DNA of 33,872 nt from an uncultured Halieaceae bacterium (lineage in GTDB: Bacteria > Pseudomonadota > Gammaproteobacteria > Pseudomonadales > Halieaceae). The notes below the pieces were generated by a model. The model saw nothing but the letters and a program-made list of their open reading frames with translations. It had not been told where the DNA came from and did not search any database. Numbering within the stretch: position 1 is the stretch's first letter; each line of letters opens with the position of its first letter. The stretch covers positions 1 through 33,872 of the forward strand of contig CAJWWA010000007.1 of NCBI GenBank assembly GCA_913048495.1. The letters run 5' to 3'. Shown piece after piece: positions 4,601 through 30,604 of this stretch. The position numbers and the translations under genes are program-made.

Positions 4601-6124
4601 CTATTCATGGTGGGCCGGCGGGTCCGCCGGCGCCGCGTCGAGGAGGTTGTCCCAGGCGCCGCGGGCCCGCAGCTGCTCCCGGGTCTCCGCGGGCAGCAGG
4701 GTTTCGGCCGTGGCGGGCTCCCAGCCGCCGCCGAGGGCGGCGTAGAGCTGGATGACCGCCTGCAGGTGGTCGCCCTGGTTGCTGATGGCGCGGTCCGCCT
4801 GCGCGGCGAGGGCGCGCTGCGCGTCGAGGACCCGCTGGAAACCGGAGTAGCCTTCCTGGTAGCGGCGCGTGGCCAGCGCGAGGGAGCGCTCGGCGGCGTC
4901 GAGGGAGGCGTCGAGGTCGCCCTGGCGCTCGGCGGTCTTCACCAACTGCACGGCCGCGTCGTCGATTTCCCGGGCCGCCGTGAGCACCGCCGCCCGGTAG
5001 CCCTCGAGGGCCTGCTGCAGCCGCGCATCCTCCACGCGCACCGCATTCTCGAGGCGGCCGTAGTTGAGGATGTTCCAGCGCAGCGTGGGGCCGGCGGCGA
5101 GCACCGTGCGGTCCGGCGACAGCGCGAGGGAGCTGCCGGACCAGCCGACGCTGCCGGCCAGGCCGATCGCCGGGTAGAGATCCGCGGCGGCGATGCCGAT
5201 ACGTGCGCTCTGCGCCGCGGCCTGCCAGGCGGCCGTGCGCACGTCCGGGCGGCGGGCGAGGAGCTGCGCCGGCAGCGCCGGGATGGCCTCCGGGGCGACG
5301 GCCGGCAGGCTGTCGTCGATGGTCTCGAGGCCCGGGATGTCCCCCGGCGGGCGGCCGAGGAGCGCGGCCAGCGCGTTGCGCTGGCGGGCGAGGGCGATCT
5401 CCAGGCTGGGTATGCCGGCCCGCGTGCCGAGGTACTGCACTTTCGCCTGCTGCAGGTCGAGCTCGGAGGTCTGCCCCTCGTCGTAGAGACGTGTCGTGAT
5501 CTCGAGGCTGCGCGCCTGCACGCGGACGTTCTCCCGGGCCACGCGGATGCGGCGCAGCGTGGTCTTGTAGTCGTAGTAGCGCGCGGCGACCTCTGCCGTC
5601 AGCAGCAGCTGGGCGTCGCGCTGGGCGGTGATCGAGGCGAAACTCGCCGCCTCGGCCGACTCCACGGCGCGGCGGAACCGGCCCCAGAAGTCGAGCTCCC
5701 AGGCCAGGGAAAGACCCAGGCTGGCACTGGTGTCGCTGCGGTCCGGTGACAGGCCCGAGCTGTCGTCCACGCCGGCGATCGAGGCGCTGCCCTCGATGCG
5801 CTGCAGCTGCGGGTAGCGGCTGCCGCTGGCGATGCCGAGGGCGGCGCGGGCCTCGAGGACGCGCAGGCCCGCCGTGCGCAGCCCCGGGTTGTCGCGGTGG
5901 GCGAGGGCCAGGAGCGACGCCAGCTGCGGGTCCTCGAAGCGGGTCCACCAGCGGGCAAGGCTGTCCTCGAAGGCGGGGTCGCTGCCGTCCACCTGCCCGT
6001 AGAGCGACGGCTGCCAGGCCGCCAGCCAGTCGACCTCGGGCTCCCGGAAGTCGGGGCCCAGTGGCGCGCAGGCGGCAGTGGTCAGAAGTGCCAGCGCGAG
6101 CGTCAGCTGCCGGGCGAGACGCAT
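4601..6124 (-). CDS. NodT-family outer-membrane efflux lipoprotein
   Basis: MRLARQLTLALALLTTAACAPLGPDFREPEV lipobox; outer membrane efflux repeats. Start trimmed from the track ORF. Confidence 0.92.
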   Translation of the reverse strand: MRLARQLTLALALLTTAACAPLGPDFREPEVDWLAAWQPSLYGQVDGSDPAFEDSLARWWTRFEDPQLASLLALAHRDNPGLRTAGLRVLEARAALGIASGSRYPQLQRIEGSASIAGVDDSSGLSPDRSDTSASLGLSLAWELDFWGRFRRAVESAEAASFASITAQRDAQLLLTAEVAARYYDYKTTLRRIRVARENVRVQARSLEITTRLYDEGQTSELDLQQAKVQYLGTRAGIPSLEIALARQRNALAALLGRPPGDIPGLETIDDSLPAVAPEAIPALPAQLLARRPDVRTAAWQAAAQSARIGIAAADLYPAIGLAGSVGWSGSSLALSPDRTVLAAGPTLRWNILNYGRLENAVRVEDARLQQALEGYRAAVLTAAREIDDAAVQLVKTAERQGDLDASLDAAERSLALATRRYQEGYSGFQRVLDAQRALAAQADRAISNQGDHLQAVIQLYAALGGGWEPATAETLLPAETREQLRARGAWDNLLDAAPADPPAHHE

Positions 6125-10733: not shown

Positions 10734-11915
10734 ATGGTCTTGCTCGCGATCATCGTCACGGGGCTCATTGCCGATATATACCTTGCCGTGGCGCCGTCCC
10801 TGCTGGGCGCCATGGTCGATTACCAGGGCATCAGCCCTCGCTTGTCGGGCCAGCTCATATCCTATAATTTTTTCGGCTCGGGGCTGGGGACGCTTCTGGC
10901 ACCGGTGGCTCTGTCCCGGTCAAACTGGAACATCCGGTTGACCATGCTGGCGGCGCTGGGAACTGTCAGCGTGACCAGTGTGCTGTCAGTCTGGCTCGTA
11001 GGCAGTAACAGCGCCCTTTCGCTAGTGCGATTCCTGAGTGGCCTCGGTACGGGCGTGGGCTTTACCGCTGCCTGCGTGGCGCTTGTCGGCCTACCCAACG
11101 TCGAACGCTGGTATGCCATTCTCTACGGCAGCCCTTTCGTCGTCGGCGGTGTCGGGATCGCGCTGTTGCCTTCCGTCTATGTTTCCGTTGGCGTGACCGG
11201 CGCCTTCTATGGAATCGCTGCTCTTTGCCTCGCCGCTTGCGCGCTTCTGCCCTGGTTCCCGCGCCACATAGGAGAAGCCGATCGACAGTCGGCGCCGGCT
11301 CCAGGGCAGCTAAGTGGCGCGGGGTGGCTGGCCTCCGGTTTACTTCTGTCGGCGTTTTTTCTGCACTATGTGTTCAACTCCGGGATCTGGACCTACTTTG
11401 AGCGGCTCGGCGTGAGCTTCGGTATGACTCCGGAGTACACAGGTGCGGTGCTCGGCCCCGGCATGGCAGCCGGAATCATAGGCATGCTGCTTGCCTCCTG
11501 GTTGGGTAATCGCATGGCGCCAGTAAGGGCGATCACGGCGGGGACTCTGGTTATCTTTGCGACCACGGCACTGCTGCTTGCAGAGCCATCGGGTCTGGCT
11601 TTTGCGCTGGTTGCGGCACTGTTCAATGCCAGCATTCCCTTCGTCACACCGTATTTTGTTGGTCCGCTCTCGCGCCTCGTCCCGCGGGGACTGGGTGTTA
11701 TGGCTGCCAATGCCGCGCTTATGCTGGGTTTTGCTTCGGGCCCCATGCTCGTGTCGCTAACGATCTCCGGTGACGAATTTACCGGAGCAATCCTTCTTAC
11801 GCTGGCGGGCTTCCTTGCTGTCCTGGTGCTGACCGGATTGTTCGCAGTAGTGGCTTCTGCCAGAGGGCTGCTCGCGCGTGAAGCTGCAGGAACGCCAGCG
11901 GCGAGTGCACCCTGA
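10734..11915 (+). CDS. MFS transporter (paralog of 14440..15621)
   Basis: 12-TM-like 393 aa; IADIYLAVAPSLLGAMVDYQGISPRLSGQLISYNFFGSGLGTLLAP. Confidence 0.85.
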   Translation: MVLLAIIVTGLIADIYLAVAPSLLGAMVDYQGISPRLSGQLISYNFFGSGLGTLLAPVALSRSNWNIRLTMLAALGTVSVTSVLSVWLVGSNSALSLVRFLSGLGTGVGFTAACVALVGLPNVERWYAILYGSPFVVGGVGIALLPSVYVSVGVTGAFYGIAALCLAACALLPWFPRHIGEADRQSAPAPGQLSGAGWLASGLLLSAFFLHYVFNSGIWTYFERLGVSFGMTPEYTGAVLGPGMAAGIIGMLLASWLGNRMAPVRAITAGTLVIFATTALLLAEPSGLAFALVAALFNASIPFVTPYFVGPLSRLVPRGLGVMAANAALMLGFASGPMLVSLTISGDEFTGAILLTLAGFLAVLVLTGLFAVVASARGLLAREAAGTPAASAP

Positions 11916-11948
11916 GCCAGTCCCGGCGGAGCGGTTTGCGCGGAAGTA

Positions 11949-11973
11949 ATGCCGGCTTGAGAAAAAAAGGATG
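11949..11973 (+). promoter_or_regulatory. Island 25-mer motif, copy A (upstream of amidohydrolase)
   Basis: ATGCCGGCTTGAGAAAAAAAGGATG; ungapped match to copies B and C. Confidence 0.5.
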
Positions 11974-12068
11974 CCCGCGCTGCGCCAGAGTAGGCAAGCT
12001 GTGTGGCGCAGGTGTCGGCCTCAGCGGCTGAAGCCCGCTTTCTAACAGGACTCAATGGCAATCCGGTT

Positions 12069-13325
12069 ATGCAGCGACTGCTGATAGAAAATGCAAACGT
12101 GTTTGACGGTTACCGCGACGAGCTTCTCGAAGGACTGCACCTGCTCATTGAGGACGGTGTTATCACGGGAGTTTCCGATGCCCCTGTACGAAGCCCTTCC
12201 ACAACGCGTATCGATGCCTCGGGTGCGACGGTCATGCCCGGGCTTATCGATGCACACGTCCACGTTACAGATTGGGGTGCTTCACCGGCGGAATTGCGCA
12301 ATACACCCTCCAGCTTAACGGCGCTTCGCGCAGCCCGCAGTCTGAACAACATGCTGCATCGCGGCTTTACGACCGTGCGCGACGCATGCGGTGCCGATTT
12401 CGGTCTCGCGGTTGCTATCGAAGACGGTTTGATCGAAGCACCAAGGTTGTACTTTGTTGGACAGGCATTGAGCGCCACTGGTGGTCATGGTGATTTCCGG
12501 GACCCCGGTGATGACACGCGAGACGATCCTTGCGGTTGTTCCGCCCGCGGTCTGAGCCTGGTCGTGGACGGAGAGACCGAAGTAAGGCGCGCTGCTCGCA
12601 ACGAGCTGAGGAAGGGTGCCCACGCGATCAAGATCATGGCGTCCGGCGGTGTTGCGTCGCCGACGGATCCGATTGCGAACCTGCAGTTTTCTGAGCGCGA
12701 GATGCGTGCAATTGTCGAAGAAGCCCGCTTCTGGGGTCGCTACGTCATGGCTCACGCCTATACGGCAGAGGCTATCGGGCGTTGCCTGGAGTGCGGCGTG
12801 CGATCCATAGAGCACGGTAATCTGATCGATCGCGAAGCCGCGGAACTCGCCGCCAGTCTCGATGCCTTCGTGGTCCCGACCCTCGTCACCTACCAGGCGA
12901 TGGAGGAGCGAGGCGAGGAGATCGGAATGTCGCGGGTCAGCCTCGACAAACTCCGGGATGTACGCAAGGCCGGGCTGCAGAGTCTTGAATACCTGAAGGA
13001 AGCCCGTGTGAAAACGGGCTTCGGTACCGACCTTTTCGGCGATCTTCAATCCGAGCAGGCCCGGGAGCTCTCGATCCGTGCCGAAGTTGAATCGAACGTC
13101 GAAGTCCTGCGTTCAGCGACGTCGGTTAATGCCGAGCTGCTTCAGATGAAGGGGCGTCTCGGGTGTATACGCGAAGGTGCGTTGGCGGATCTGCTGATCG
13201 TCGATGGCAACCCGCTTGAGGACCTCGGCAAGCTGCAACAGGGCGCCCGGTACATCACGCACATTATCAAGGGTGGCCGCGTCGTTGGCGGGAGTGCCTC
13301 CGGCGTCAGTCCTGCCGCAGGTTAA
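12069..13325 (+). CDS. Amidohydrolase superfamily metal-dependent hydrolase, dipeptidase/imidazolonepropionase-like
   Basis: MPGLIDAHVHVTDWG, GAHAIKIMASGGVASPTDPIANLQFS (Lys ligand region), MAHAYTAEAIGRCLECGVRSIEHGNL, FGTDLFG; ATG 12069 chosen as start (MQRLLIENANVFDG). Confidence 0.9.
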   Translation: MQRLLIENANVFDGYRDELLEGLHLLIEDGVITGVSDAPVRSPSTTRIDASGATVMPGLIDAHVHVTDWGASPAELRNTPSSLTALRAARSLNNMLHRGFTTVRDACGADFGLAVAIEDGLIEAPRLYFVGQALSATGGHGDFRDPGDDTRDDPCGCSARGLSLVVDGETEVRRAARNELRKGAHAIKIMASGGVASPTDPIANLQFSEREMRAIVEEARFWGRYVMAHAYTAEAIGRCLECGVRSIEHGNLIDREAAELAASLDAFVVPTLVTYQAMEERGEEIGMSRVSLDKLRDVRKAGLQSLEYLKEARVKTGFGTDLFGDLQSEQARELSIRAEVESNVEVLRSATSVNAELLQMKGRLGCIREGALADLLIVDGNPLEDLGKLQQGARYITHIIKGGRVVGGSASGVSPAAG

Positions 13326-13353
13326 TCAAGTTCAGGAAGGAGTAATAGACCCC

Positions 13354-14433
13354 ATGTCAGAAACGACCGATGTCAGTACAGCGCTAAAGCCCGAGTTCCT
13401 GGTCGTCGTCGACAAGATCTACCGGGAGATGTGTAACCTCCAACCCGGTACCAAGGTTCTTATCATCACCGACTCGCGAACGCCCCGACACGTAGTGTCG
13501 GTGTTCATGGGGTATGCCATGGCGATGGGTGCCGATGTTTCGGTTTCCGAGAATCCGATGCCACCGCCGCCCACGCTGCAGCCTGGCTACGAGTGGAACT
13601 CGATGGTAAAGGCCGCCGCCGCGCAGGCGGAGCTGATCGTGGACCTTGCCGTTGGCTATGCCGATTTCATGGCAGAGGCCGTTGAGCGGGGCGCGCGCAT
13701 TATGAGCCCCGGAGATGGTACCGGCGGCCACCATATCGAGGATACGCTGATCCGGACAATGCTGGCGGCTGACATCCACGCACTGCGCCGGGAAGCAATA
13801 GCGATTGCGAAGCTGTTCACCGAGGCGTCTACACTGAGAATGACCTCGGAAGAGGGTACTGATTTCGAGATGGATATCAGCGGCCTCGAGGGCATCTCTT
13901 CGGACGAGTTCCTCTGGGACCCCGACAAGAAACAGATGACCGGCACCTGGGCGGCACTGCCCCCGGCGGCCCCGGGCATCGTGATTCCCAAGGGTCGTGG
14001 GAACGGGGTGATGGCAGTGGACGGTTTTCTTCTTTATGAACCGGCCTATGATCACGAGAAGCCGACGGGTCCGGTATTCCTTACCTTCGAGAACGGAAAG
14101 ATCGTTGATGTGGCCGGAGAGCCATTGTTTGCCGGTCGCTTGCGGCACTGGTTCGACGAGCAGCCCGATGATTCGGCGCAATATGGCCCTGTGCATCTGA
14201 ACCTCGGCCTGAACTCGCGCGCAATGCTGACGCAGCATCCAGAGTTCGAGAAACTCCGCGGAACCGTTTGTTGTGGCATTGGCGACAGCAGCTTGTTGAC
14301 CAGGATGTGGCACGGGTCGGATCTGGAGCCGAACATATCTCACATGCACTGGGACATTCTGCTCATGCGGCCGACGCTGCTGCTCGATAGCGCGCCGGTT
14401 TGCAGGGACGGCTTTATCGTCGCTGAAACCTGA
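13354..14433 (+). CDS. M29 aminopeptidase/NicX-like metalloprotein, copy 1
   Basis: MSETTDVSTALKPEFLVVVDKIYREMCNLQPGTKVLIITDSRTP...HLNLGLNSRAML...HMHWDILLMRPTLLLD; RBS AGGAAGGAG upstream. Confidence 0.8.
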   Translation: MSETTDVSTALKPEFLVVVDKIYREMCNLQPGTKVLIITDSRTPRHVVSVFMGYAMAMGADVSVSENPMPPPPTLQPGYEWNSMVKAAAAQAELIVDLAVGYADFMAEAVERGARIMSPGDGTGGHHIEDTLIRTMLAADIHALRREAIAIAKLFTEASTLRMTSEEGTDFEMDISGLEGISSDEFLWDPDKKQMTGTWAALPPAAPGIVIPKGRGNGVMAVDGFLLYEPAYDHEKPTGPVFLTFENGKIVDVAGEPLFAGRLRHWFDEQPDDSAQYGPVHLNLGLNSRAMLTQHPEFEKLRGTVCCGIGDSSLLTRMWHGSDLEPNISHMHWDILLMRPTLLLDSAPVCRDGFIVAET

Positions 14434-14445
14434 GCCCGCTCAGGT
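14428..14445. terminator. Perfect 7-bp hairpin containing both convergent stop codons
   Basis: ACCTGAG-CCCG-CTCAGGT; TGA 14431-14433 (+) and TCA 14440-14442 (-) lie in the two arms. Confidence 0.45.
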
Positions 14446-15621
14446 GGCGGTCCCGGCCCGGGAATCGTCGTCAAGACGTTTGATGTCGTATCGTTTGACC
14501 AGCGCCGTGAGCGCCAGCGCGATAGCGAAGCCGGCAATGGACGTGAAGTAAAGCCGGCTGAAACTATCGCCATGCAGCAGGTAAGACGCGACCAGGGCAC
14601 CCAGGGAGTACCCGGCCATCAGCAGGAAGTTTGCTGCAGCAACCGCGCGTCCAGAGGGCGCAAGGAGTGCCGCAAAGGCCACGAAGTAGGGCACGACGAA
14701 GGTGATACTCGCGTTGAACACTGCTGACGCGACCCCAAAAACAAGCGGTGAGGTGAACGCGGCAAGCGCAACAGTGGCGAGCGTGATGGCAATCAGTCCG
14801 GCAATGATCGGAATCACGTGGCCAAGCCTGTCGCCCAGTATCCCTGCGCCGCACATGCCGATGAGTGCCGCGGCGAGTCCGGGTCCCAGTATCGCGCCAG
14901 AGTCCTCTGGAGAGAGGCCCAGAGAAACCCCGATACGCTCGAGGTATACCCAGACGCCGGTGTTGGCCGCGTTGAACAGAAAGAGCGCCACCATGATCGC
15001 GGTAACCGGAATAGCTATGGCGGGGAACTGATCGCGGGTCGGCGCCGATACTGCATTGCGAGGTCCAACGCCGATGGGGAAGAGCCGATGCATTGGCAGC
15101 GCAACCAGGGCGAGTAGCGCAATACCGCCAAAAACACCCTCCAGACCGATTGAACGATACAACGTGGGCAGGCCGGCCAGGCCCGCTCCGCCGAGGATGA
15201 AGGGCATCCCGCACAGCACGGCATAGGTGCGCTCCATCCAGGGCATCGTCATGAGAGCCACAGCGCACACGGTGAACGAAAGACCCGCTGCGATACCGTT
15301 GACGAACCAGTTGATGCTAAGCAGCCACGGCCAGGGGCTGAGTGTTGCAGCGCCTAAGCTGGTTACGATCACGATCAGCATGCAACCGGCAATCGTCCTG
15401 CGAAGGTCCCAGCCGCCCCGGTGAATGACAAGTATCGCCAGGAGACTAGCGAGTGTGGCTCCAATATTGCTGTAGGAAATGAGCCGTCCCGCGAAGGCCT
15501 CGCTGAAGCCCTGGTAATCCACAAGCGCGCCGACGAAGGACGGTGCGGCCGCCATGTAGACATTGCACAGGCCTCCAAGAAGGAGGATTGCTGCTATCCT
15601 GTGCAGCACATGACCGCGCAT
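14440..15621 (-). CDS. MFS transporter (paralog of 10734..11915)
   Basis: CNVYMAAAPSFVGALVDYQGFSEAFAGRLISYSNIGATLASLLA; WVYLERIGVSLGLSPEDSGAILGPGLAAALIGM. Confidence 0.87.
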   Translation of the reverse strand: MRGHVLHRIAAILLLGGLCNVYMAAAPSFVGALVDYQGFSEAFAGRLISYSNIGATLASLLAILVIHRGGWDLRRTIAGCMLIVIVTSLGAATLSPWPWLLSINWFVNGIAAGLSFTVCAVALMTMPWMERTYAVLCGMPFILGGAGLAGLPTLYRSIGLEGVFGGIALLALVALPMHRLFPIGVGPRNAVSAPTRDQFPAIAIPVTAIMVALFLFNAANTGVWVYLERIGVSLGLSPEDSGAILGPGLAAALIGMCGAGILGDRLGHVIPIIAGLIAITLATVALAAFTSPLVFGVASAVFNASITFVVPYFVAFAALLAPSGRAVAAANFLLMAGYSLGALVASYLLHGDSFSRLYFTSIAGFAIALALTALVKRYDIKRLDDDSRAGTAT

Positions 15622-15944
15622 GGTACGACTACCGCCCTGCTGCTGACACGGGCAGCAAAACCAAGGTTTGCCACTTCCTCATAGCGCTGGTGACCCTCGA
15701 GTGGTGGGCGTACTCCTGCAGGCCCCGATTGCTTGAGATGACGCGCGGCATTCCGTTACCCCCTTCGCTTCGATCAGGCCCGGACCGACCCTTAGCGGGT
15801 GTCTGCTCTTCCGGCGGCTGCGGTGGAGTCGCTGCTTTTGCGGCAGGATAGCCTGCGGCTGGCCGGGAACCCATGCCCCGATTCAAAAGCCCGCTTGTTC
15901 AATTGATGAAGTCGTTTGCAATGGAGTCCGTACTGCTCCGCCAA

Positions 15945-15969
15945 GGTGCGCCAGGCACCAGCTAGGTGC
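15945..15969. repeat. Alternating 5-nt half-sites at exact 10-nt steps
   Basis: GGTGC-gccag-GCACC-agcta-GGTGC. Confidence 0.45.
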
Positions 15970-15995
15970 AGATGCCGCTCGTTCAGCTTTAGACA

Positions 15996-16020
15996 ATGTC
16001 GGCTTGAGCAAAAACGAATT
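15996..16020 (+). promoter_or_regulatory. Island 25-mer motif, copy B (upstream of TonB receptor)
   Basis: ATGTCGGCTTGAGCAAAAACGAATT; 20/25 identical to copy A. Confidence 0.5.
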
Positions 16021-16108
16021 TACCGGGCGCTGCCGGGGCGGCTAGTTTGATCGAGAGTCAGGAGATGAACCTTTTTCCATTACTGTTACTCGAACCGGGG
16101 CCGCCCAG

Positions 16109-18514
16109 ATGCAACCAGTATTTCACCAACTAAACCGCCACCTGCGGAAGACGCCAATAGCGCTGGGGGTCGCCCTGGCGCTCCAGCAACCCCCTGCGGT
16201 TGCACAGGAGGCTCGGCTTGAGGAGGTACTCGTTACCGCAACTCGCCGCGCGGTAACGGTGCAGGACATCCCCTACAACATCAACGTGGTCACTGGCGAA
16301 CAGCTGCGCGCGGCCGGCATTTCCGATGTTGTGGAGCTGGTCAGACTGGTCCCGGGCCTGACTATTCTCAACGAGGGGCCGCGGGTGTCGGGCAACCGCA
16401 ATACCTACAATCTGCGTGGTATGAACGTCGATGCGGCCGGCAACGAGGATGACAACCCCCGCATCAGCCAGGCTACCGTTTCAACGTACCTCGGCGAGGT
16501 GCCGATGTTCTTCCCCATGAAACTGGTGGACATAGCCAGAGTCGAAGTGCTGCGTGGACCCCAGGGCACGCTGTACGGCGCGAGCTCGGTTGGCGGTACC
16601 ATCCGCTTCATGCCCGAGGCGCCGCGGCTGGATGAAACTACGGTCCAGCTCATGGGTGAGTTTTCCCAGACCGAGGAGTCAGGTGATCTCAACTATGACG
16701 GCAATATCGTCGTTAACCTTCCCCTGTCCGAGCAGCTGGCCTTCCGCGGTTACTTCGGACAGGAGCGGCTTGCCGGTTTTATCGACGCCGTTGACCTTAT
16801 TGAGCAGACCGGAACGCCGCGCAACCCGGGTGAAATCGTCTTGCAGGATCCGGACGACATTCTTGGCAGTCCGGCGATTCGCGGCGGGGTCATCAAGGAT
16901 TCCAACGAATCCGAACAGACTTATTTCCGCGGCAGCCTGTTGTTCCGCCCCAGCGACCTTATCGAAGCCACGTTGAACTACCATTTTCAGGAAGTCGAGG
17001 TCGACAACCGCTACGAAGACAATCGCTTTTTCGGGGACGGAGAGGATTACAAGACCTACAAGGCCTTCACTGATCCACAGGACGGTGAACTTTCCCTCAT
17101 CAATCTCGATGTGCAGGCGGACCTGGGGTTCGCGCGGTTGACCTCTGCTACAGGCTATACAGAAATCGACATCGACAGCGTTTCGGATTCCTCCGGCTTT
17201 TTGCGCACCAATTTGCCGCAGTACTACTTCGGCTTCCCGCGTCTGTTTGCCCCCTTGAGCCGCAGTCAGTCCACTGAGACCTTCACCCAGGAACTGCGTC
17301 TTGTATCCACGGGGGACGGCCCCATCGACTGGGTGGCGGGTGTCTTCTACATGGAGAACAAGCTTGATTTCACCATGTTGCAGATCGCCTCTGGACTGAA
17401 CGACTACACCAACGCCTATTTCGGCACACCCGCACCGGTGGATTTTACCGACGTGCTGGCGCGCGGGGGAACAAACCAGGAGTTCACCGACCTGGCCGCT
17501 TTTGCTGAAGTAACCTGGCATGTCACCGACCGCTGGCAGGTTACCGGCGGAATCCGGGTTTTTGACCAGGAACTGGACGGATCCTCCGGCATACCGCTTC
17601 CTTACGCGTCGAGAACGTTCGAGTACTACTACTACGGCACGGCGACCGATGATTTTCTGCTCGGTGGCATCAACCCGACCGAGTACGAAGTGGACGAGGA
17701 GATCCTGAAGTTCAACACCTCGTTCGAAGTTTCTGACGACATGCTGATCTTCGCGACCTTCGCCGAGGGTTTTCGGCCTGGCGGGGCCAACCAGCTCCCC
17801 GAAACCGACCCCTTTGGGAACGACAACTCGGCAATCCTCGATTTTCAGCCGGATGTCGTTGATAACTATGAGGTGGGTATCAAGGGCACGATCGATGATC
17901 GTTTCACCTATACCGCGACCGCGTTCTACATGGACTGGGACGATTTTCAGGCAACGCTCGCTTCACCTTTCGGAATCGCCTATATCGACAATGTGCCCGG
18001 GGCGGAATCGAAGGGTCTGGAGCTCGAACTGAGCGGTTACCTCGGCAGCAGTTTCGACTTTACGCTGGGATATTTCTACGTGGATGCGGAGATCAGCGAA
18101 GACTTCAATTTTGTGGCGGGGGACCCCTCCTCTGTGATCGAAGCAGGCACGTCGCTGCCGGCGGTTCCAGAGCACGAATTTTTCGGCGCGGCGAACTACC
18201 GGGTTGGTTTCGGCGATTCCACGCTAACTTTTCACCTGGACGCCTCTTACCGCGGGGAGACCCGCAGCAACTTCCGTGACCTGCCGAATTACCCGCTCGA
18301 GAACTTTGCAGAGCTTGATGCTTTCACGATCTGGAATGCCTCGGTAAGCTGGGAGACCGGACCGTACCGCGTCTGGCTGTTCGGTGAGAATCTGGGCAAT
18401 GAACGCGGGGAAACACTTGTAACAGCGGAGGATGCCTACGGCCCTCGTGACCAGGCACGGGGAGTGACGAGGCCGCGCACCTTCGGCCTACGATTCAGCT
18501 ACTTCTGGGAGTAA
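16109..18514 (+). CDS. TonB-dependent receptor
   Basis: Signal peptide, LEEVLVTATRRAVTVQDIPYNINVV TonB box/plug start, VEVLRGPQGTLYGASSVGGTIRF plug, barrel ending TFGLRFSYFWE. Confidence 0.95.
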   Translation: MQPVFHQLNRHLRKTPIALGVALALQQPPAVAQEARLEEVLVTATRRAVTVQDIPYNINVVTGEQLRAAGISDVVELVRLVPGLTILNEGPRVSGNRNTYNLRGMNVDAAGNEDDNPRISQATVSTYLGEVPMFFPMKLVDIARVEVLRGPQGTLYGASSVGGTIRFMPEAPRLDETTVQLMGEFSQTEESGDLNYDGNIVVNLPLSEQLAFRGYFGQERLAGFIDAVDLIEQTGTPRNPGEIVLQDPDDILGSPAIRGGVIKDSNESEQTYFRGSLLFRPSDLIEATLNYHFQEVEVDNRYEDNRFFGDGEDYKTYKAFTDPQDGELSLINLDVQADLGFARLTSATGYTEIDIDSVSDSSGFLRTNLPQYYFGFPRLFAPLSRSQSTETFTQELRLVSTGDGPIDWVAGVFYMENKLDFTMLQIASGLNDYTNAYFGTPAPVDFTDVLARGGTNQEFTDLAAFAEVTWHVTDRWQVTGGIRVFDQELDGSSGIPLPYASRTFEYYYYGTATDDFLLGGINPTEYEVDEEILKFNTSFEVSDDMLIFATFAEGFRPGGANQLPETDPFGNDNSAILDFQPDVVDNYEVGIKGTIDDRFTYTATAFYMDWDDFQATLASPFGIAYIDNVPGAESKGLELELSGYLGSSFDFTLGYFYVDAEISEDFNFVAGDPSSVIEAGTSLPAVPEHEFFGAANYRVGFGDSTLTFHLDASYRGETRSNFRDLPNYPLENFAELDAFTIWNASVSWETGPYRVWLFGENLGNERGETLVTAEDAYGPRDQARGVTRPRTFGLRFSYFWE

Positions 18515-18560
18515 TCGGCAGGGCGTCGATACTCCCGACGTCCTGTGTGGGACTCCGGCG

Positions 18561-20159
18561 GTGAATGACGCTCAAGACAGCTACCAGAGCCTCGAGACGC
18601 AGGTACGTGCGGTAGCCGGCCTTTTGCAGGCGGGCCGCATAAAGGTTGCGCGGCGGGCCATTGATTCGCTCAAAGGGCAGGGCCCGGACAACGGCGACAT
18701 CTGGGCACTCGATGGCGAACTTGCGCTTCGTGAGCGGCGGCCGGAAGCGGCCCGAGCGGCGGTGGATCGGGCCCTCGCCCTCGACCCCGGCCTGCCAGAG
18801 CGGCATATCCAGCGGGCACGATGCTACCTGTTGACGGGCGATGCCGAGGAAGCGCTGGTTTCCGCCGAACTTGCTCTTGCATGCCCTCTGCGACGACTGG
18901 ATCACCTGCTGGTACTGGGTGGCGTGCTGGTTCGCTGCGAACGCCATGAGCAGGCCCTCTCTGTCTACGACCAGGCAAGCCGTCAGGCACCGGATTCGGC
19001 CGATGCGTGGCGAGGCCTGGCAGCCGTATACCGCTTCCTGGGTCGTCTGGAAGACGCCGAGCGCGCTGCAGACAAAGCGATCCATCTGGATCCCGCAGAC
19101 TACGAAACCATCGGGCTTCGCTCTTCGCTGCGCACCTGGGCAGAGCATGATAACCACCTTGCGGCGCTGGAACGCCTGGAGCGCGAGGGCATCAAGGACT
19201 GGCGGGGTGCGGTACAGGTTGCCTACGCGATCGCACGCGAGTACGAAGACCTTGGTCGCTGGTCCGAGTCTTTTGCCGCGCTCCGGCGCGGAGCCACGTT
19301 GAAGCGTCAGCATACGCGTTACGATCATGCAGACGATCTCCGCATCTTTCCGACACTGAAGTCCGCATTCACCCGGGAGGCGCTGGCTTCGCTCGAGGGG
19401 GGTGGACTCTGCACCGGTGAGCCGATCTTCGTTCTGGGTATGCCCCGCACCGGCTCCACGCTGGTCGAGCGCATCATTACGGCCCACAGCCAGGTGCAGA
19501 ACCTTGGAGAGGTGAGCACCTTTTCCGCGGAAATGGTGCGTCTCGTCCGCGAGCGGAATGCCGCTCAAGTAGACCGCCTTGCCCTGGCTGAACGCAGCCT
19601 TGAGCTTCCCATGCATACGCTCGGAGCGCGCTACATGGCTGCGGTGGACAAGGCTCGTGACGGTTCAGCGCGGTTTGTGGACAAACTGCCGCTCAACTGC
19701 CTGAACGTGGGTCTGATACACGCGGCGCTGCCGAATGCCAAGATCGTGCATGTCGTCCGGGACCCGATGGATGCCTGCTACGCAATCTACAAGTACCTGT
19801 TTCGCAATGGCTATCCTTTCTCCTACGATCTTCGGGAACTCGGCGCGTACTACGCCGAGTACTGGTCGCTCATGGCGCACTGGCGGGAGGTGTTGCCCCG
19901 CGGCGCTCTCTACGAGATCCGTTACGAAGACGTTGTCGAGGACCTGCCGGGTCAGGCACGCGCACTGATTGATGCCCTCGACCTCACGTGGGAAGAAGCC
20001 TGCATCGAGTTTCACGCCAACCGGCAGGCAAGCACCACGGGAAGCGCTGCGCAGGTGCGCAGGCCGGTCTACCGATCATCGGTGGGCCTTTGGCGCCGCT
20101 ATGAACGCGAGCTTGCGCCGCTACGGGAGGTGCTGGCGGCAGCGGGGCTACCCGTCTGA
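18561..20159 (+). CDS. TPR-repeat sulfotransferase family protein
   Basis: N-terminal TPR-like helices; FVLGMPRTGSTLVERIITAHSQVQNLGE (PAPS 5'-loop), AKIVHVVRDPMDACYAIYKYLF. Confidence 0.92.
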   Translation: MNDAQDSYQSLETQVRAVAGLLQAGRIKVARRAIDSLKGQGPDNGDIWALDGELALRERRPEAARAAVDRALALDPGLPERHIQRARCYLLTGDAEEALVSAELALACPLRRLDHLLVLGGVLVRCERHEQALSVYDQASRQAPDSADAWRGLAAVYRFLGRLEDAERAADKAIHLDPADYETIGLRSSLRTWAEHDNHLAALERLEREGIKDWRGAVQVAYAIAREYEDLGRWSESFAALRRGATLKRQHTRYDHADDLRIFPTLKSAFTREALASLEGGGLCTGEPIFVLGMPRTGSTLVERIITAHSQVQNLGEVSTFSAEMVRLVRERNAAQVDRLALAERSLELPMHTLGARYMAAVDKARDGSARFVDKLPLNCLNVGLIHAALPNAKIVHVVRDPMDACYAIYKYLFRNGYPFSYDLRELGAYYAEYWSLMAHWREVLPRGALYEIRYEDVVEDLPGQARALIDALDLTWEEACIEFHANRQASTTGSAAQVRRPVYRSSVGLWRRYERELAPLREVLAAAGLPV

Positions 20160-20172
20160 TCGTGAGCGATCA
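20157..20172. terminator. Perfect 6-bp hairpin at convergent junction, includes the sulfotransferase stop codon
   Basis: TGATCG-TGAG-CGATCA. Confidence 0.4.
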
Positions 20173-20177
20173 TCCCT

Positions 20178-21080
20178 TCATTCCGCGTTGACGCCAAGCT
20201 TGTCGAGAAAAAGACGCGACAGGTTGGAGAGCCTTCCGGATTTGCGCTTGACAAGGCAGAAACCGAAGCTGCGCCGGAGCCTGGTCGGCAGCAGTGCCCG
20301 CAGTTCGCCGCGTTGCTGCCATAAATCGGCGTAATGGGTCGGCAGGTAGCCGAGATACTTTCCGGAGAGGATCAGGTAGGTAACACCCTCGATGTAGGGT
20401 GAGGCGGCGACCTCGTTGAAGGAGAAAGGCGCTTCCCAGCCGTCGAGTCCCTCAACATAGCCCCAGGTCACATAGCCGGCTTTGCCGAACTCTTCCTCGG
20501 TGATGGCGTCGTCATCACGCGTAAAAAAGGGGTGTTTCCTGGCGCAGTAGAGGAGGTGCTCCTCGTCGAACAGCGGTATGTAGTCGATGCTCTCCAGCTG
20601 GTGGTGGAACAACCCGACTGCGATATGCAGGCGCCCGTCCAGCACCTGCTGTTCCAGTTCTACCGCGCCTCCCACATAGATGTTGATCCTGGCATCCGGG
20701 GCCGCCTCGGAGAAGGCAGCAATGGCGTCGCGTATACGGCTGTCCTCGTGGGTGACCGTATTGTCGATAAGGCCGAGCCTGAGTTCCCCGGTAAGCCGTC
20801 CGCGGGCTTCCGCTACGTCGTTGCGGAAATCCTCAAGCGCGGCAAACAGCTTCTCACTGGCCTCAAGCACGGCGATGCCATCCTCAGTCAGTTCGAAGTT
20901 GCCGCGACCGCGTTCGCAGAGGCGGCATCCAAGGCGCACCTCGAGCTGTGCCATCTGGGTGCTGATGGCCGACTGGCTGACATTGAGTTGCGCCTGGGCC
21001 GCCGAGAAACCGCCGCACTCGGCAATGACCTGGAAGATCCTGAGCAGCTTGATATCGCTGTCGTGAATCTGCCCCAGCAT
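20178..21080 (-). CDS. LysR-family transcriptional regulator
   Basis: DIKLLRIFQVIAECGGFSAAQAQLNVSQSAISTQMAQLEVRLGCRLCERGRGNFELTEDG HTH. Confidence 0.95.
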   Translation of the reverse strand: MLGQIHDSDIKLLRIFQVIAECGGFSAAQAQLNVSQSAISTQMAQLEVRLGCRLCERGRGNFELTEDGIAVLEASEKLFAALEDFRNDVAEARGRLTGELRLGLIDNTVTHEDSRIRDAIAAFSEAAPDARINIYVGGAVELEQQVLDGRLHIAVGLFHHQLESIDYIPLFDEEHLLYCARKHPFFTRDDDAITEEEFGKAGYVTWGYVEGLDGWEAPFSFNEVAASPYIEGVTYLILSGKYLGYLPTHYADLWQQRGELRALLPTRLRRSFGFCLVKRKSGRLSNLSRLFLDKLGVNAE

Positions 21081-21121
21081 GTTTGTCAGTTTCCCAGAGA
21101 TGACCGCTTTCCGCTAAGTGG

Positions 21122-21146
21122 ATGTGGGGTTGAAGAAAAAGTGATG
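21122..21146 (+). promoter_or_regulatory. Island 25-mer motif, copy C (LysR / DUF1989 operon intergenic)
   Basis: ATGTGGGGTTGAAGAAAAAGTGATG; 18/25 to copy A, 17/25 to copy B. Confidence 0.45.
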
Positions 21147-21207
21147 TTAATTGCTGGTTTCGCGCCAGACAATATTCTGCCGTGAGTCGCAAATAGGGGA
21201 TAACACT

Positions 21208-21948
21208 GTGGTTAGCGTTACGCCAGAGGCTGAATGCCTTTATGCCGACCGGCTGGAGGGCGGCTCTCACTGGTCGCTGGTGATGCGCCGCGGCACCAGG
21301 CTGCGGCTTGTCGACATCGAAGGCGGTGCCAACCTGGGGATGCTGCTTTACAACCCGTTGGACAAGCTTGAACGCTACAACGCCCCGGATACCCTCAAGT
21401 GCCAGCACACCTTTCGCCTGGGGCAGGGCAACTGCCTGTTTTCCGATATGGGCCGTATCTTCTGCTCTTTAATATCCGATGATCTTTCGGGGCACGATAC
21501 GGTTTGCGGCAATCTGAGCGAGCGTGCGCTGCACGAGAAGTACGAGGTGCGCACCTTCCAGGAGGCCCGCAATGAGCGCTCTGTTAGCGGGGAGTATGCC
21601 TTTCTGATTGAGCTCGGCAAGCACGGCCTGGGAGAAAGAGACCTCGCGGCGAATGTCAACTTCTTCAGCAAGGTGCTTACCGATGAGGCCGGAAACCTGT
21701 CCTATGTGACCGATTACAGCGGGCCTGGCAGCGCTGTCGAACTTCGCTTTGAGATGGATTCGCTGGTGATCATGCACAGCTGTCCGCACCCGCTGAATCC
21801 CTCGCCGGAATACCCCCGGCGCCCGGTGGCCTTTGAAGTGCTGAGGGCCGATCCGCCCTCTAAAGATGATCCCTGCTTGAACCACTGCGAGGAAAACCGA
21901 CGCGGCTTCCAGAACAACGCGATCTATCACTTGCAGGGAGGTTACTGA
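21208..21948 (+). CDS. DUF1989 protein, probable carboxyguanidine deiminase subunit (annotated elsewhere as urea carboxylase-associated protein 1)
   Basis: LRLVDIEGGANLGMLLYNPLDKLERYNAPDTLKCQHTFRLGQGNCLFSDMGR, HDTVCGN, NVNFFSKV, CPHPLNPSPEYPRRPV; GTG start at 21208 with GGGGA upstream. Confidence 0.85.
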   Translation: MVSVTPEAECLYADRLEGGSHWSLVMRRGTRLRLVDIEGGANLGMLLYNPLDKLERYNAPDTLKCQHTFRLGQGNCLFSDMGRIFCSLISDDLSGHDTVCGNLSERALHEKYEVRTFQEARNERSVSGEYAFLIELGKHGLGERDLAANVNFFSKVLTDEAGNLSYVTDYSGPGSAVELRFEMDSLVIMHSCPHPLNPSPEYPRRPVAFEVLRADPPSKDDPCLNHCEENRRGFQNNAIYHLQGGY

Positions 21949-21949
21949 C

Positions 21950-22591
21950 GTGTTGCAGGAGAGCAGGCTGGACGCCGCCGGGGCCCGGTTTCGAAAGCGC
22001 ATAGACGCGGGGGACTTCTGGTTTGAGCGGATTGCCTCGGGGCAGACGCTCCGCATCGTTGATATCGAGGGAAACGAGGCGGCAGATGTCCTGTTTTTCT
22101 CGGCGGCGGATCCCGCGGAGCGCTACTCCGCTGTAGACACCGTGCGCGGGCAGGGCAATATCTACCTCGGGTACGGAAGCGTGTTGCTAAGCACCCGGGG
22201 CAACCCGCTGCTTGAGATTACCGCGGACACGGTCGGACGGCATGACACGCTGGGCGGAGCCTGCGCGGGTGAGTCAAACACCGTTCGCTACGCTCACGAC
22301 CGAAAGTGCATGCACTCCTGTCGCGACAACTGGATGTTCGCGATCTCGCAGCGGCCGGAGTTCGCCGTGTCCAAGCGCGACATCACGCATAACATCAACT
22401 TTTTCATGAACGTACCGGTCTCGCCGGATGGCGGGCTCCATTTCGACGATGGCATATCCGGTCCCGGCAAGTATGTGGAGCTGGTGGCAAGGATGGACGT
22501 GCTGGTGTTGATCAGTAATTGTCCGCAGCTCAACAACCCCTGCAGCGGATTCAATCCAACACCGCTCGAGGTGCTTGTCTGGGATGAATAA
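21950..22591 (+). CDS. DUF1989 protein, probable second carboxyguanidine deiminase subunit (urea carboxylase-associated protein 2)
   Basis: LRIVDIEGNEAADVLFFSAADPAERYSAVDTVRGQGNIYLGYGSVLLS, HDTLGGACAGESN, CMHSCRDN, NCPQLNNPCSGFNPTPLEVLVW; GTG start. Confidence 0.87.
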   Translation: MLQESRLDAAGARFRKRIDAGDFWFERIASGQTLRIVDIEGNEAADVLFFSAADPAERYSAVDTVRGQGNIYLGYGSVLLSTRGNPLLEITADTVGRHDTLGGACAGESNTVRYAHDRKCMHSCRDNWMFAISQRPEFAVSKRDITHNINFFMNVPVSPDGGLHFDDGISGPGKYVELVARMDVLVLISNCPQLNNPCSGFNPTPLEVLVWDE

Positions 22592-25500
22592 GTCGTCAGC
22601 CGCCAGCCGGGTGCTCATTGCCAATCGAGGTGCTGTCGCCGTGCGCATCCAGCGCACCCTGCGGGATATGGGCATCGACCCGGTGGTGGTCTACCACGAA
22701 GCGGACCGCGAGTCCCTGCACGTGCAGCAGTCGCCGCTGCACTTCTCCCTGGGCTCGGGCAGCGTGCAGGACACTTACCTGAATGCCGGTCGTCTTATCG
22801 AGACTGCGCTGGAGGCCGGGGCCTGGGCAGTGCACCCAGGCTACGGTTTTCTCAGCGAGAACGCCGAGTTTGTCCGGGCCTGCGAGGCCGCGGGCCTGGT
22901 TTTTCTCGGCCCCACGCCGCAGCAGATCGAGGCTTTCGGCCTCAAGCACCGTGCGCGCGAACTCGCCCGGGGCAGCGGTGTGCCCCTTGTCCCCGGCACT
23001 GGCGAACTGGCCTCCGTCGAGGAGGCGTTGGCTGCCGCCGGGAATATCGGCTACCCGGTAATGCTCAAGAGTTCGGCCGGCGGCGGTGGCATCGGAATGG
23101 CCGTCTGTCGCGATGCCGATGCGTTGAATCGAGCGTGGGATTCGGTGCGGCAGGTGAGTCGCAGTAACTTTGCAGACTCCACACTTTTTCTGGAGAAGTT
23201 CATCGAGCGGGCCCGGCATATTGAGGTTCAGGTCTTTGGCGACGGCGCGGGCCGGGCCCTGGCTATCGGAGAGCGGGACTGTTCTGCCCAGCGGCGCAAT
23301 CAGAAAGTGCTCGAGGAGACACCGGCGCCGGGTCTCGACGCTGCCCAGCGCCAGCGTCTCCACGACACAGCTGTGCGCTTGCTGGAGGCAGTGAGCTACC
23401 GCAGCGCCGGCACCGTTGAATTCATTCTCGATGATGACACGGGTGAATTCTATTTCCTGGAGGTGAATACCCGCTTGCAGGTCGAACACGGCGTGACCGA
23501 GGAAGTCTGGGGTGTGGACCTCGTGCGCTGGATGGTCGAACTGGGACAGGGTGTCCTTCCTGAACTCACCACGCTGGCGGCGGGACTCGCTCCGCGCGGA
23601 CACGCCATCCAGGCGCGTGTTTACGCCGAGGATCCCTGGAAGGACTTCCAGCCCTGTGCGGGACTGTTAACCGAGGTCAGTCTGCCAGAGCCCGTGGGCG
23701 GAGCGCTGCGGGTAGATCACTGGATCGAGACCGGGGTCGAGGTGAGCGGCCTGTTCGACCCCATGCTGGCAAAGCTCATCGTGCGGGCGGAGGATCGTGA
23801 GACCAGCCTCAAGCGGTTGCTGGAGTCGGTAGAGGCGAGCCGGATAAGCGGTATCGAAACGAATCTCGCTTACCTGGGCGCGCTGCTGCGATCAGAGCCG
23901 GTGCGCGAGGGCCGGTGCCTGACTTCGACGCTCGCTGGCATCAGGGTGCCGTCGCAGGCCATCGAAGTCATCTCCGGCGGCACGCTGACGACGGTCCAGG
24001 ACTACCCCGGCCGAACCGGTTACTGGGGCGTCGGGGTACCGCCCTCGGGACCCTTCGACAGTTTGAGTTTCCGGCTGGGCAATCGTCTGCTGGGCAATCC
24101 CGAAAATGCTGCAGGCCTCGAGATAACCCTGCAGGGGCCTGAACTTGCCTTCCGGTCTCCGCGCTGTTTCGTGCTCGCCGGCAGTGTTTTCGAGGCCTTC
24201 ATCGATGATGAGGCCGTTGCTCCCTGGCAGGTGGTGTGCGCGCAGGCCGGGCAGACGCTGCGGATCGGTTCTCCGCGCGGCCGCGGCGTCCGTGTCTACC
24301 TGCTGGTGGAGGGAGGCCTTGACTGTCCCGAGTACCTCGGCTCGCGGAGCACATTCACCCTCGGCCGGTTTGGTGGTCACGCGGGTCGTGCGCTTCGCGC
24401 GGGTGATGTCCTGCGCCTGTCCTGCCCTCATGGCTCCGCTAAACCGGGAGTAATACTGCCCGAGGCGCTGACCCCGGAAGACAGTGAGACATGGCAGCTG
24501 CACGTAATTCCCGGTCCCCAGGGGAGTACCGAGTACTTCAGCGAGGATTACCTGCAGGCGTTCTACAGCGCCGACTGGCGGGTGCACTATAACTCCAGCC
24601 GCACGGGCGTTCGCCTCGTGGGCCCGAAGCCCGACTGGGCCCGAAGCGACGGCGGTGAAGCGGGCATGCACCCCTCGAATATCCATGACAACGCCTATGC
24701 CATTGGCACGATAGACTTTACCGGAGACATGCCGGTAATACTTGGACCCGATGGCCCCTCGCTGGGGGGGTTCGTCTGTCCCGCGACGGTTATCGAGGCG
24801 GATCTGTGGAAGATCGGTCGGCTGTCCGCTGGCGACCTGGTACGGTTTGTCCCGGTTACGCTTGAAGGTGCTGTGGCCGCGCTCGAACGGCAAAAGCGTG
24901 AGATTGCGGAGCTGCGGGCGATCCCCTCGCGACTCGTCCGCGCACCGGCAGTTGAACCGGAAATGCACCGCTTCGAGGCCAACGGTGTCGCTATCACGGT
25001 ACGGCGCAGTGGTGATGGCTGGTTGCTGGTGGAGTATGGGCCGCCGGTGCTGGATATCCGCCTGCGTTTCCACGCTCACCGGCTGATGCTATCCCTGCAG
25101 CAGGAGCCGCTACCCGGCATGCTCGAGCTCACGCCGGGGATACGAAGCCTGCAGGTTCGCTATTCGCCGCTGGCGGTAGAGGCACCGCGTCTCCTGCAGG
25201 CTCTGGTGGATCGCATCCTCACCGTGGCCGAGCAACCCGCCGAAACAGTTAGTTCCCGCATCATCCATCTACCACTTTCCTGGGACGACCCGGCCTGTCA
25301 CGCGGCTATCGAAAAGTACCAGAAGTCGGTCCGTGCCGATGCGCCCTGGTATCCTTCAAACATCGAGTTCATCCGACGCATCAACGGGCTGGACTCGGTC
25401 GACGACGTGCGCCGGATCGTTTTCGACGCAAGCTATCTCGTCATGGGCCTGGGTGACGTCTATCTCGGCGCCCCGGTAGCTGCGCCTTTGGATCCGCGGC

Positions 25501-26198
25501 ACCGGCTGGTAACGACCAAGTACAATCCGGCGCGGACCTGGACGGCGGAGAACTCCGTGGGTATCGGCGGCTCCTACCTCTGCGTCTACGGTATGGAAGG
25601 CCCCGGGGGCTACCAGTTCGTTGGTCGCACCCTGCAGATGTGGAACCGCTATCGCTCTACACCGGAATTCAGTCGCCGCTGGCTGCTGAAGTTTTTCGAC
25701 CAGCTGCGGTTCTTCGAGGTCAGTGCCGAAGAACTGCAGCAGATCCGGGCAGATTTCCTGGTGGGGAACTACCCGCTGCAGGTGGAGCAGGCCGAGTTTG
25801 ACCTCGAGGCCTACGACCGGTTCCTGTCGGCTAACCGGTCAGGGATCGAGGCCTTCGAGGCATCGCGCAACCGGGCCTTCGATGCGGAGCTGAATGCCTG
25901 GAAGGCGGCAGGGGAGTTTCACTATGAGCCGGCCCAAGTGCCGAGGCCCCCGGCCGAGGAGCCGATGCCGGCGCACTTCCGGAAAATCGAAAGTCCGGTG
26001 TCGGGCAGCGTATGGCAGGTGGTCGTCGACACGGCGCAACGCGTCGAGGCGGGCGAGTGCCTGCTGATCCTCGAGTCCATGAAGATGGAGATCGAGGTGA
26101 AGGCGCCGGTGGCCGGGACGGTGCGGCACATCGCGCGAGCTGCGGGAACGGCGGTGCTGCCGGGTCAGTCGCTGGTCTACCTGGAGCCCATGGTATGA
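22584..26198 (+). CDS. Urea/guanidine carboxylase (biotin carboxylase, KipI/KipA-like carboxyltransferase, BCCP)
   Basis: RVLIANRGAVAVRI, MLKSSAGGGGIGM, FLEVNTRLQVEHGVTEE; TTVQDYPGRTGYWGVGVPPSGPFDSLSFRLGN; SNIEFIRRINGLDSVDDVRRIVFDASYLVMGLGDVYLG; ESMKMEIEVKAP. Confidence 0.96.
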   Translation: MNKSSAASRVLIANRGAVAVRIQRTLRDMGIDPVVVYHEADRESLHVQQSPLHFSLGSGSVQDTYLNAGRLIETALEAGAWAVHPGYGFLSENAEFVRACEAAGLVFLGPTPQQIEAFGLKHRARELARGSGVPLVPGTGELASVEEALAAAGNIGYPVMLKSSAGGGGIGMAVCRDADALNRAWDSVRQVSRSNFADSTLFLEKFIERARHIEVQVFGDGAGRALAIGERDCSAQRRNQKVLEETPAPGLDAAQRQRLHDTAVRLLEAVSYRSAGTVEFILDDDTGEFYFLEVNTRLQVEHGVTEEVWGVDLVRWMVELGQGVLPELTTLAAGLAPRGHAIQARVYAEDPWKDFQPCAGLLTEVSLPEPVGGALRVDHWIETGVEVSGLFDPMLAKLIVRAEDRETSLKRLLESVEASRISGIETNLAYLGALLRSEPVREGRCLTSTLAGIRVPSQAIEVISGGTLTTVQDYPGRTGYWGVGVPPSGPFDSLSFRLGNRLLGNPENAAGLEITLQGPELAFRSPRCFVLAGSVFEAFIDDEAVAPWQVVCAQAGQTLRIGSPRGRGVRVYLLVEGGLDCPEYLGSRSTFTLGRFGGHAGRALRAGDVLRLSCPHGSAKPGVILPEALTPEDSETWQLHVIPGPQGSTEYFSEDYLQAFYSADWRVHYNSSRTGVRLVGPKPDWARSDGGEAGMHPSNIHDNAYAIGTIDFTGDMPVILGPDGPSLGGFVCPATVIEADLWKIGRLSAGDLVRFVPVTLEGAVAALERQKREIAELRAIPSRLVRAPAVEPEMHRFEANGVAITVRRSGDGWLLVEYGPPVLDIRLRFHAHRLMLSLQQEPLPGMLELTPGIRSLQVRYSPLAVEAPRLLQALVDRILTVAEQPAETVSSRIIHLPLSWDDPACHAAIEKYQKSVRADAPWYPSNIEFIRRINGLDSVDDVRRIVFDASYLVMGLGDVYLGAPVAAPLDPRHRLVTTKYNPARTWTAENSVGIGGSYLCVYGMEGPGGYQFVGRTLQMWNRYRSTPEFSRRWLLKFFDQLRFFEVSAEELQQIRADFLVGNYPLQVEQAEFDLEAYDRFLSANRSGIEAFEASRNRAFDAELNAWKAAGEFHYEPAQVPRPPAEEPMPAHFRKIESPVSGSVWQVVVDTAQRVEAGECLLILESMKMEIEVKAPVAGTVRHIARAAGTAVLPGQSLVYLEPMV

Positions 26199-28009
26199 GC
26201 GGGCTGCCTACACTGCCCGATATTCCAAAGCTTGAAGCCGGCTACCGGAAAGGGTGCTTTACGCCGCGGCAGGTCATTGCGGATGCGCTTGCCAGGGCGG
26301 CCCGCTTTGAGGACAGGAATATTTTCACCTTCCGCCCCGAAATAGACGCCCTGATGCCCTGGCTGTCGAGGCTGGAGGATGCTGAGCCCGAGTCCCTGCC
26401 CCTCTTCGGCATTCCGTTCCTGGTGAAGGACAACATCGATGTGGCCGGCATGCCGACCACCGCGGCCTGCGTACCTTTCGCCTACACCCCGGACCGCAGC
26501 GCGTTCGTCGTCCAGCGCCTTGTGGACGCAGGTGCGATTCCAATCGGCAAGACCAACATGGATCAATTCGCTACCGGGCTGGTGGGCACGAGATCGCCCC
26601 AGTGGGGCGTATGCCGCAACGCCCTGGATCCCGGGTGGATTGCCGGCGGCTCCAGTGCGGGCTCAGCGGTGGGTGTGGCGCTCGGCCTCGCCAGCTTCTC
26701 GCTTGGCACAGACACGGCGGGGTCAGGGCGCGTGCCCGCCATGTTGAACAACGTCGTTGGCCTCAAGCCCAGCCGGGGCCTGCTTTCCATGAGCGGCATC
26801 GTGCCCGCCTGCCGCTCGCTGGACTGTCCCAGCGTGTTCGCACTTACTGCAGCCGATGCCAGGCGGGTTTTCGAGGTGGCCGTAGACCGTGATCGGGAAG
26901 ACCCCTGGTCTCGCGAAAATCCCTTTTCCAACTCGGTCCGAGCCGCGGGTTTGCCGACGGGCACCCTTCGGCTGGGCGTACCGATCGAATCACAGCTTGA
27001 ATTCTTCGGCGACACTGGCAATGCGGGCTGCTATGCCGCCGCGGTGGAGGCATGGATTGAACTCGGTGCGGAGACGGAGGAGGTCGATATCGCGCCACTG
27101 CTTGCAGCGGCCCGCCTGCTCTACGATGGTCCCTGGGTTGCGGAACGGTATCTCGCGGTTGAGGACGTTTTCGAGCAGCTCGGTGATGCTATGGACCCCG
27201 CCGTGCGCGCTATCCTCGAGCCGTCGCCCGATTTGCGCACCGTGGATGCCTGGCGCGCAGCTTATGCCCTGCAGCGCTGCCGTGTTGCCGCCGAGCGGCT
27301 CTTCGACGGCATAGACGCGCTGCTGTTGCCCACCGCACCGACCAGCTACCGCATTGAGGAGGTGCTGGCGGAGCCGCTTGCCCTGAATACCCGTATGGGT
27401 TTCTACACCAATTTCATGAATCTGCTGGATCTTTGCGGTGTAGCGGTACCGGCGGGTATGAATACTGCCGGCCGGCCCTTTGGTGTCACGCTCGCAGCCC
27501 CGGCCATGCGCGACCAGGCGCTGCTGGGTCTTGCTGAATGGTGGCAGGCCAGCCAGGGGCTGCCCGCAGGTGCGACCGGGCAGGTTCCTGCGCTTGTTAC
27601 ACCATCGCCTTCCCGGTATTCCGCCCGCGTCGATGTCGCCGTGTGCGGCGCTCATCTGGACGGTCTTCCCCTGAACTGGCAGTTGGTCGAGCGGGGCGGG
27701 AAGCTCGTTGAAAAGACCCTGACGATGAGCTGCTACCGGCTCTATGCCCTGCCCGGCGGACCTCCCCTGCGGCCGGGGCTGCTGCGCGACGAAAATGCCG
27801 GCACCGCTATCGAGGTCGAAGTCTGGTCTCTGCCAGCCACTGAATTCGGCAGCTTCGTGGCAGCGATTCCGCGACCGCTGGGCATCGGTCAGGTCGAGCT
27901 GGAGTCCGGGTGCTGGGTCAGTGGTTTCCTGTGCGAGCCAGCGGGGCTGGAGGGAGCCACGGATATCAGCTCCCTGGGCTCATGGCGAGCCTATCTGGCG
28001 ATGCAGTAA
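26195..28009 (+). CDS. atzF: Allophanate hydrolase
   Basis: Amidase signature GGSSAGSAVGVALGLASFSLGTDTAGSGRVPAMLNN plus C-terminal allophanate hydrolase domain; ATGA overlap with carboxylase. Confidence 0.95.
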   Translation: MSGLPTLPDIPKLEAGYRKGCFTPRQVIADALARAARFEDRNIFTFRPEIDALMPWLSRLEDAEPESLPLFGIPFLVKDNIDVAGMPTTAACVPFAYTPDRSAFVVQRLVDAGAIPIGKTNMDQFATGLVGTRSPQWGVCRNALDPGWIAGGSSAGSAVGVALGLASFSLGTDTAGSGRVPAMLNNVVGLKPSRGLLSMSGIVPACRSLDCPSVFALTAADARRVFEVAVDRDREDPWSRENPFSNSVRAAGLPTGTLRLGVPIESQLEFFGDTGNAGCYAAAVEAWIELGAETEEVDIAPLLAAARLLYDGPWVAERYLAVEDVFEQLGDAMDPAVRAILEPSPDLRTVDAWRAAYALQRCRVAAERLFDGIDALLLPTAPTSYRIEEVLAEPLALNTRMGFYTNFMNLLDLCGVAVPAGMNTAGRPFGVTLAAPAMRDQALLGLAEWWQASQGLPAGATGQVPALVTPSPSRYSARVDVAVCGAHLDGLPLNWQLVERGGKLVEKTLTMSCYRLYALPGGPPLRPGLLRDENAGTAIEVEVWSLPATEFGSFVAAIPRPLGIGQVELESGCWVSGFLCEPAGLEGATDISSLGSWRAYLAMQ

Positions 28010-28781: not shown

Positions 28782-28796
28782 GGTCGGGTAGTGTAC

Positions 28797-28850: not shown

Positions 28851-28877
28851 AACTTTTGCCTGCTGCGAGGATACTTC

Positions 28878-30590: not shown

Positions 30591-30604
30591 ACTCGAGCGA
30601 GCCA

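Follow-up and report, generated by a model that had tools for sequence, protein, structure and literature searches.

The window, by which we mean the whole stretch of 33,872 nucleotides analysed here from an uncultured Halieaceae bacterium, carries a catabolic island in which three operons are each preceded by a copy of one 25-nt motif (copies A, B and C, Table 1). Operon A encodes an amidohydrolase and a partner protein, operon B a TonB-dependent receptor and a sulfotransferase, and operon C two urea amidolyase associated proteins (UAAP1 and UAAP2) followed by urea carboxylase-type and allophanate hydrolase enzymes. A lysR gene diverges from operon C, and its product has an N-terminal HTH_1 domain and a C-terminal LysR_substrate domain.

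Table 1. Genes and candidate regulatory elements of the island, in window coordinates.
Feature	Position	Strand	Remark
Invariant TT before copy A, probable distal half	11935-11936	+	14-13 nt upstream of the motif; in 5/5 sites
Candidate operator copy A	11949-11973	+	Ahead of amidohydrolase operon; leave-one-out rank 1 in window
Amidohydrolase	12069-13325	+	Below cut-off of the nearest NCBIfam model, caulobacterial Xaa-Pro dipeptidase
Second gene of operon A, no profile family	13360-14433	+	79% orthologue in L027
Invariant TT before copy B	15982-15983	+	In 5/5 sites
Candidate operator copy B	15996-16020	+	Ahead of TonB receptor-sulfotransferase operon; leave-one-out rank 1 in window
TonB-dependent receptor	16109-18514	+	Plug + beta-barrel domains
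TPR-sulfotransferase	18561-20159	+	Sulfotransfer_3 + TPR
LysR-type regulator, proposed motif binder	20178-21080	-	HTH_1 + LysR_substrate domains
Invariant TT before copy C	21108-21109	+	In 5/5 sites
Candidate operator copy C	21122-21146	+	lysR/UAAP1 divergent intergenic; orthologous sites in G116 and L027
GACAAT, candidate -10 of UAAP1 operon	21168-21173	+	Exactly 21 nt past the motif
UAAP1 (DUF1989), urea amidolyase associated protein 1	21208-21948	+	TIGR03425 above cut-off
UAAP2 (DUF1989)	21950-22591	+	TIGR03424 above cut-off
Urea carboxylase-type biotin carboxylase/carboxyltransferase	22584-26198	+	From domain order
Allophanate hydrolase	26195-28009	+	TIGR02713 above cut-off
TetR	28149-28886		Divergent overlap with second paralogue (28878-29963), region 28149-28963

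The second gene of operon A has a paralogue at 28878-29963 (+), 47-48% identical, and the two form one protein family with no match in Pfam, NCBIfam or PDB sequences, which leaves unsupported the label 'M29' that a preliminary description had given to the former. Members occur in one of the 140 genomes of the bacterial family, in the gammaproteobacterial contig L027 (79% identity) and, at ≤33% identity, on a few plasmids (Arthrobacter, Neorhizobium, haloarchaea). The AlphaFold model of the 13360-14433 protein is unusable (pLDDT 41). The tetR gene overlaps the second paralogue divergently, which suggests separate control of that copy, and the motif is absent from this divergent region. Neither of the MFS transporter genes (10734-11915 (+) and 14440-15621 (-)) has a motif copy reading toward its own start; copy B lies in the upstream region of the latter but reads the other way.

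The preliminary description had reported the motif as three ungapped 25-mers on one strand with 16 invariant positions, and a recount reproduces this together with the coordinates, the pairwise identities (20/25, 18/25 and 17/25) and the distances from motif start to start codon, which are 120 nt for copy A (ATG 12069), 113 nt for copy B (ATG 16109) and 86 nt for copy C (GTG 21208). Among the 816 possible triples of the window's 18 upstream regions, A/B/C ranks first, ahead of a runner-up with 14 invariant positions, and dinucleotide shuffles (n=300) of the three intergenics yield 9-13. At ≤3 mismatches the pattern has three matches in the window versus none in the shuffles. A scan of the whole 3.5-Mb assembly for background occurrences at the same threshold finds A, B and C only (reversed-pattern control, 0 matches), so the motif is confined to the island, and a shorter core, GGNTTGANNAAAAANNNAT, has exact matches in the assembly at the same three sites only. 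Matches at 3 mismatches across the 140 family genomes, found in 20 of them, are at control level and were set aside, as was one in G514:C46 that sits within a coding frame. The congener G138 lacks the motif, a gene of the 13360-14433 type and UAAP1.

Only two relatives are informative for footprinting. L027, a MAG contig, is the sole relative returned by a scan of a species-level genome collection with the 13360-14433 protein; G116 is the one genome, among 16 further UAAP1 operons found in the family, with a LysR in the same divergent place. With a matrix built from A, B and C only, the top match on the L027 contig lies in the lysR/acetyltransferase intergenic (6000-6024, ATGTGAGCATTAGAAACAATGTATG, p 0.003), and that of the G116 locus in the lysR/UAAP1 intergenic (L047 2295-2319, minus strand, AAGTCGACTTTACGAACAACTAATA, p 0.001). 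Both sites point to the target gene, on the strand reading away from lysR, the target being an acetyltransferase gene in L027 and a UAAP1-UAAP2-urea carboxylase operon in G116. The motif-to-start distance is 61 nt in the window versus 62 nt in G116. The motif stands before both UAAP1 operons that have this LysR and before none of the 15 that lack it; on the coding strand the latter score ≤4.2, versus 15.7 in G116. In leave-one-out analysis each of the five sites ranks first in its own source. Over the 14.2 Mb of the three genomes, a relaxed pattern built from the five sites recovers them and a single stray exact match, in G116:C38, which lies 10 nt before an asparagine-synthase-like start, has no GACAAT and was judged to be chance.

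Conservation of the three intergenics, raised in the preliminary description, could be followed for copy C, in the G116 UAAP1 operon and at L027 lysR/acetyltransferase; for A and B no orthologous promoter was found in the family or order. The L027 contig starts inside an MFS gene upstream of its 13360-14433 orthologue. The stretch L027:361-6645 holds this orthologue, two aminotransferase genes and a DHDPS-like gene, followed by lysR and the acetyltransferase gene, whose product resembles that of 30063-30665 in the window; the same regulator is thus accompanied by a different target set.

The LysR orthologues are 61% (L027) and 58% (G116) identical to the protein of the window. In all three genomes lysR diverges from the target gene with the conserved site between them, and the three proteins have the same recognition helix, SQSAISTQMAQLE. 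It differs in 12 aligned LysR relatives of 35-45% identity, and the motif was not found in the divergent regions scanned for relatives of this group. Because the motif is conserved beside orthologues of this LysR and absent from UAAP1 operons without it, LysR, earlier put forward as the first candidate on account of its position, is now clearly the leading one. The accompanying proposal that one regulator or cis-element links uptake, processing and nitrogen release is likewise strengthened, as the motif is island-confined and conserved with lysR in two relatives, which probably indicates one switch for uptake, breakdown and urea processing.

The sequence around the motif points to a longer operator. 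GACAAT lies exactly 21 nt downstream of the motif in all three lysR-divergent promoters (window, G116 and L027), and a hexamer common to three promoters at one offset arises in 1/20000 shuffles. Copies A and B have CAAGCT and CTAGTT at this offset, and their -10 elements are not evident; a GACAAT at 15992-15997 (+) overlaps the first two bases of copy B. Two tandem units, TT-N12-AT, probably make up the operator, with the 25-mer as its promoter-proximal part, as suggested by the invariant TT and by a period of 22 bp being the best self-match; the periodicity is weak (best of periods 8-39, p 0.005 before correction for about 30 periods). T4-N11-A16 is present in 4/5 sites, and the best dyad is 38% complementary. 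The proximal half of the candidate operator is the more conserved, whereas in LysR-type regulators the distal site is usually the stronger. No TTGACA and TATAAT pair at 16-18 nt spacing occurs in 20900-21400, and a reading of the motif as a sigma-70 promoter was rejected on this ground. With GACAAT taken as the -10 element, and the start site so predicted, the half-operators centre near -64.5 and -42.5. The usual site of LysR-type regulators is near -65 (PMC4834489), and OxyR sites lie at -66 and -44 (PMC5002191).

We propose, with a probability of roughly three in four, that the motif is the operator of the island LysR, which would activate the three operons as a local catabolic regulon. LysR, probably as a tetramer, would bind ∼40-50 bp comprising the 25-mer and, two helical turns (about 22 bp) upstream, a weaker copy recognisable by the invariant TT, and would sit just upstream of a poor promoter without a -35 consensus. 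In the presence of a pathway-derived inducer, it would activate all three operons, with the TonB receptor-sulfotransferase operon serving uptake, the amidohydrolase and its 13360-14433 partner cleavage, and UAAP1, UAAP2, urea carboxylase and allophanate hydrolase nitrogen release. Copy C would also lie at the lysR promoter, allowing autoregulation. Direct binding, tetramer formation, activation and the inducer are inferred from sequence; control of operons A and B is predicted from the motif itself, the TT and a start codon at comparable distance. Most simply, LysR would be an activator that has a single high-information operator at each target promoter and regulates its own gene through copy C; control of this kind is usual for catabolic gene clusters.

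Another regulator might bind the motif, such as a global one for nitrogen or catabolites or the window's TetR, with LysR binding elsewhere in the same intergenic. That copies A and B do not adjoin lysR, and that the dyad expected for a LysR-type regulator is weak, would fit such an arrangement. However, a global regulator would have further sites, of which the genome has none, and the motif accompanies LysR in the relatives, including the one with a different target gene. As for TetR, the motif is missing from the divergent region of its gene, and the L027 contig shows no tetR gene. We consider binding by another regulator unlikely.

A role of the motif in an RNA leader, as a tiny upstream ORF or a riboswitch-like element, is suggested by an ATG and a TGA in register in all three copies (ATG-NNN-NNN-TGA; 11949-11960, 15996-16007 and 21122-21133). 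The register is probably coincidental, since it is not kept in the relatives: G116 has AAG in place of the ATG, and in L027 the TGA follows the ATG directly (ATG-TGA). Moreover, the downstream position of GACAAT would place the motif upstream of the transcript, and no Rfam family matches the window at gathering score. Both forms of the RNA-leader reading were rejected on these grounds, and we regard such a role as very improbable. The confinement of all copies to one island, in one orientation, might also mean that they are functionless relics, left by a small repeat or by duplication of promoter segments inside the island, but the resemblance ends at the motif edges (TT excepted), the motif is conserved in two divergent relatives and the genome has no further copies, making this explanation hard to credit. 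Chance similarity of A-rich stretches, to which the A-tract lends some colour by supplying 5/16 invariant positions, is negligible in view of the shuffles, the ranking of 816 triples, the genome scan, the leave-one-out result and the relatives' sites, which as held-out sites already disfavour it.

With LysR taken as the regulator, the substrate of the island can be considered. The ligand of LysR may be an intermediate of a pathway not described before, whose substrate, possibly sulfated or peptide-like, is imported by way of the TonB receptor. The amidohydrolase and the enzyme family without a known profile would cleave this compound, and urea carboxylase and allophanate hydrolase would release its nitrogen. 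This suggestion is tentative; if it is true, the genes marked by the operator make up a new organic-nitrogen pathway. One window thus yields a predicted regulator with its operator and three target operons, backed by independent genomes, and the prediction shows an experimenter which genes act together. Inducer screening with LysR offers a direct route to the substrate of this catabolic island, which is otherwise unannotated.

We found no paper in the open-licence literature that describes LysR control of such UAAP/urea carboxylase operons. The gene content and order of operon C are those of known UAAP1-UAAP2-urea carboxylase-allophanate hydrolase operons; unlike the island, the fifteen family operons mentioned above have neither this LysR nor the motif, and unlike riboswitch-controlled urea/guanidine carboxylase operons, the window contains no Rfam-matching riboswitch. 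The LysR proteins encoded on plasmids of Azospirillum, Variovorax, Pantoea, Pseudoalteromonas and Aminobacter (35-44% identical) belong to the same subfamily, and their genes diverge from genes of amine or amino-acid catabolism (aminotransferase, agmatinase, histidase or Zn-hydrolase), but they differ in having another recognition helix and, in the divergent regions scanned, no motif. The motif does not resemble CTATA-N9-TATAG, the consensus given for enteric regulators of the LysR type, and it departs from the OxyR, MetR, OccR and ThnR type in its poor T-N11-A dyad and more conserved proximal site. In other respects the arrangement resembles that of these regulators with divergent operators (PMC5002191, PMC4834489): lysR diverges from its target operon, the candidate operator lies just upstream of a weak promoter as a probable tandem pair about 22 bp apart (∼-65 and ∼-43 if GACAAT is the -10), and the sites are repeated before other operons of the pathway.
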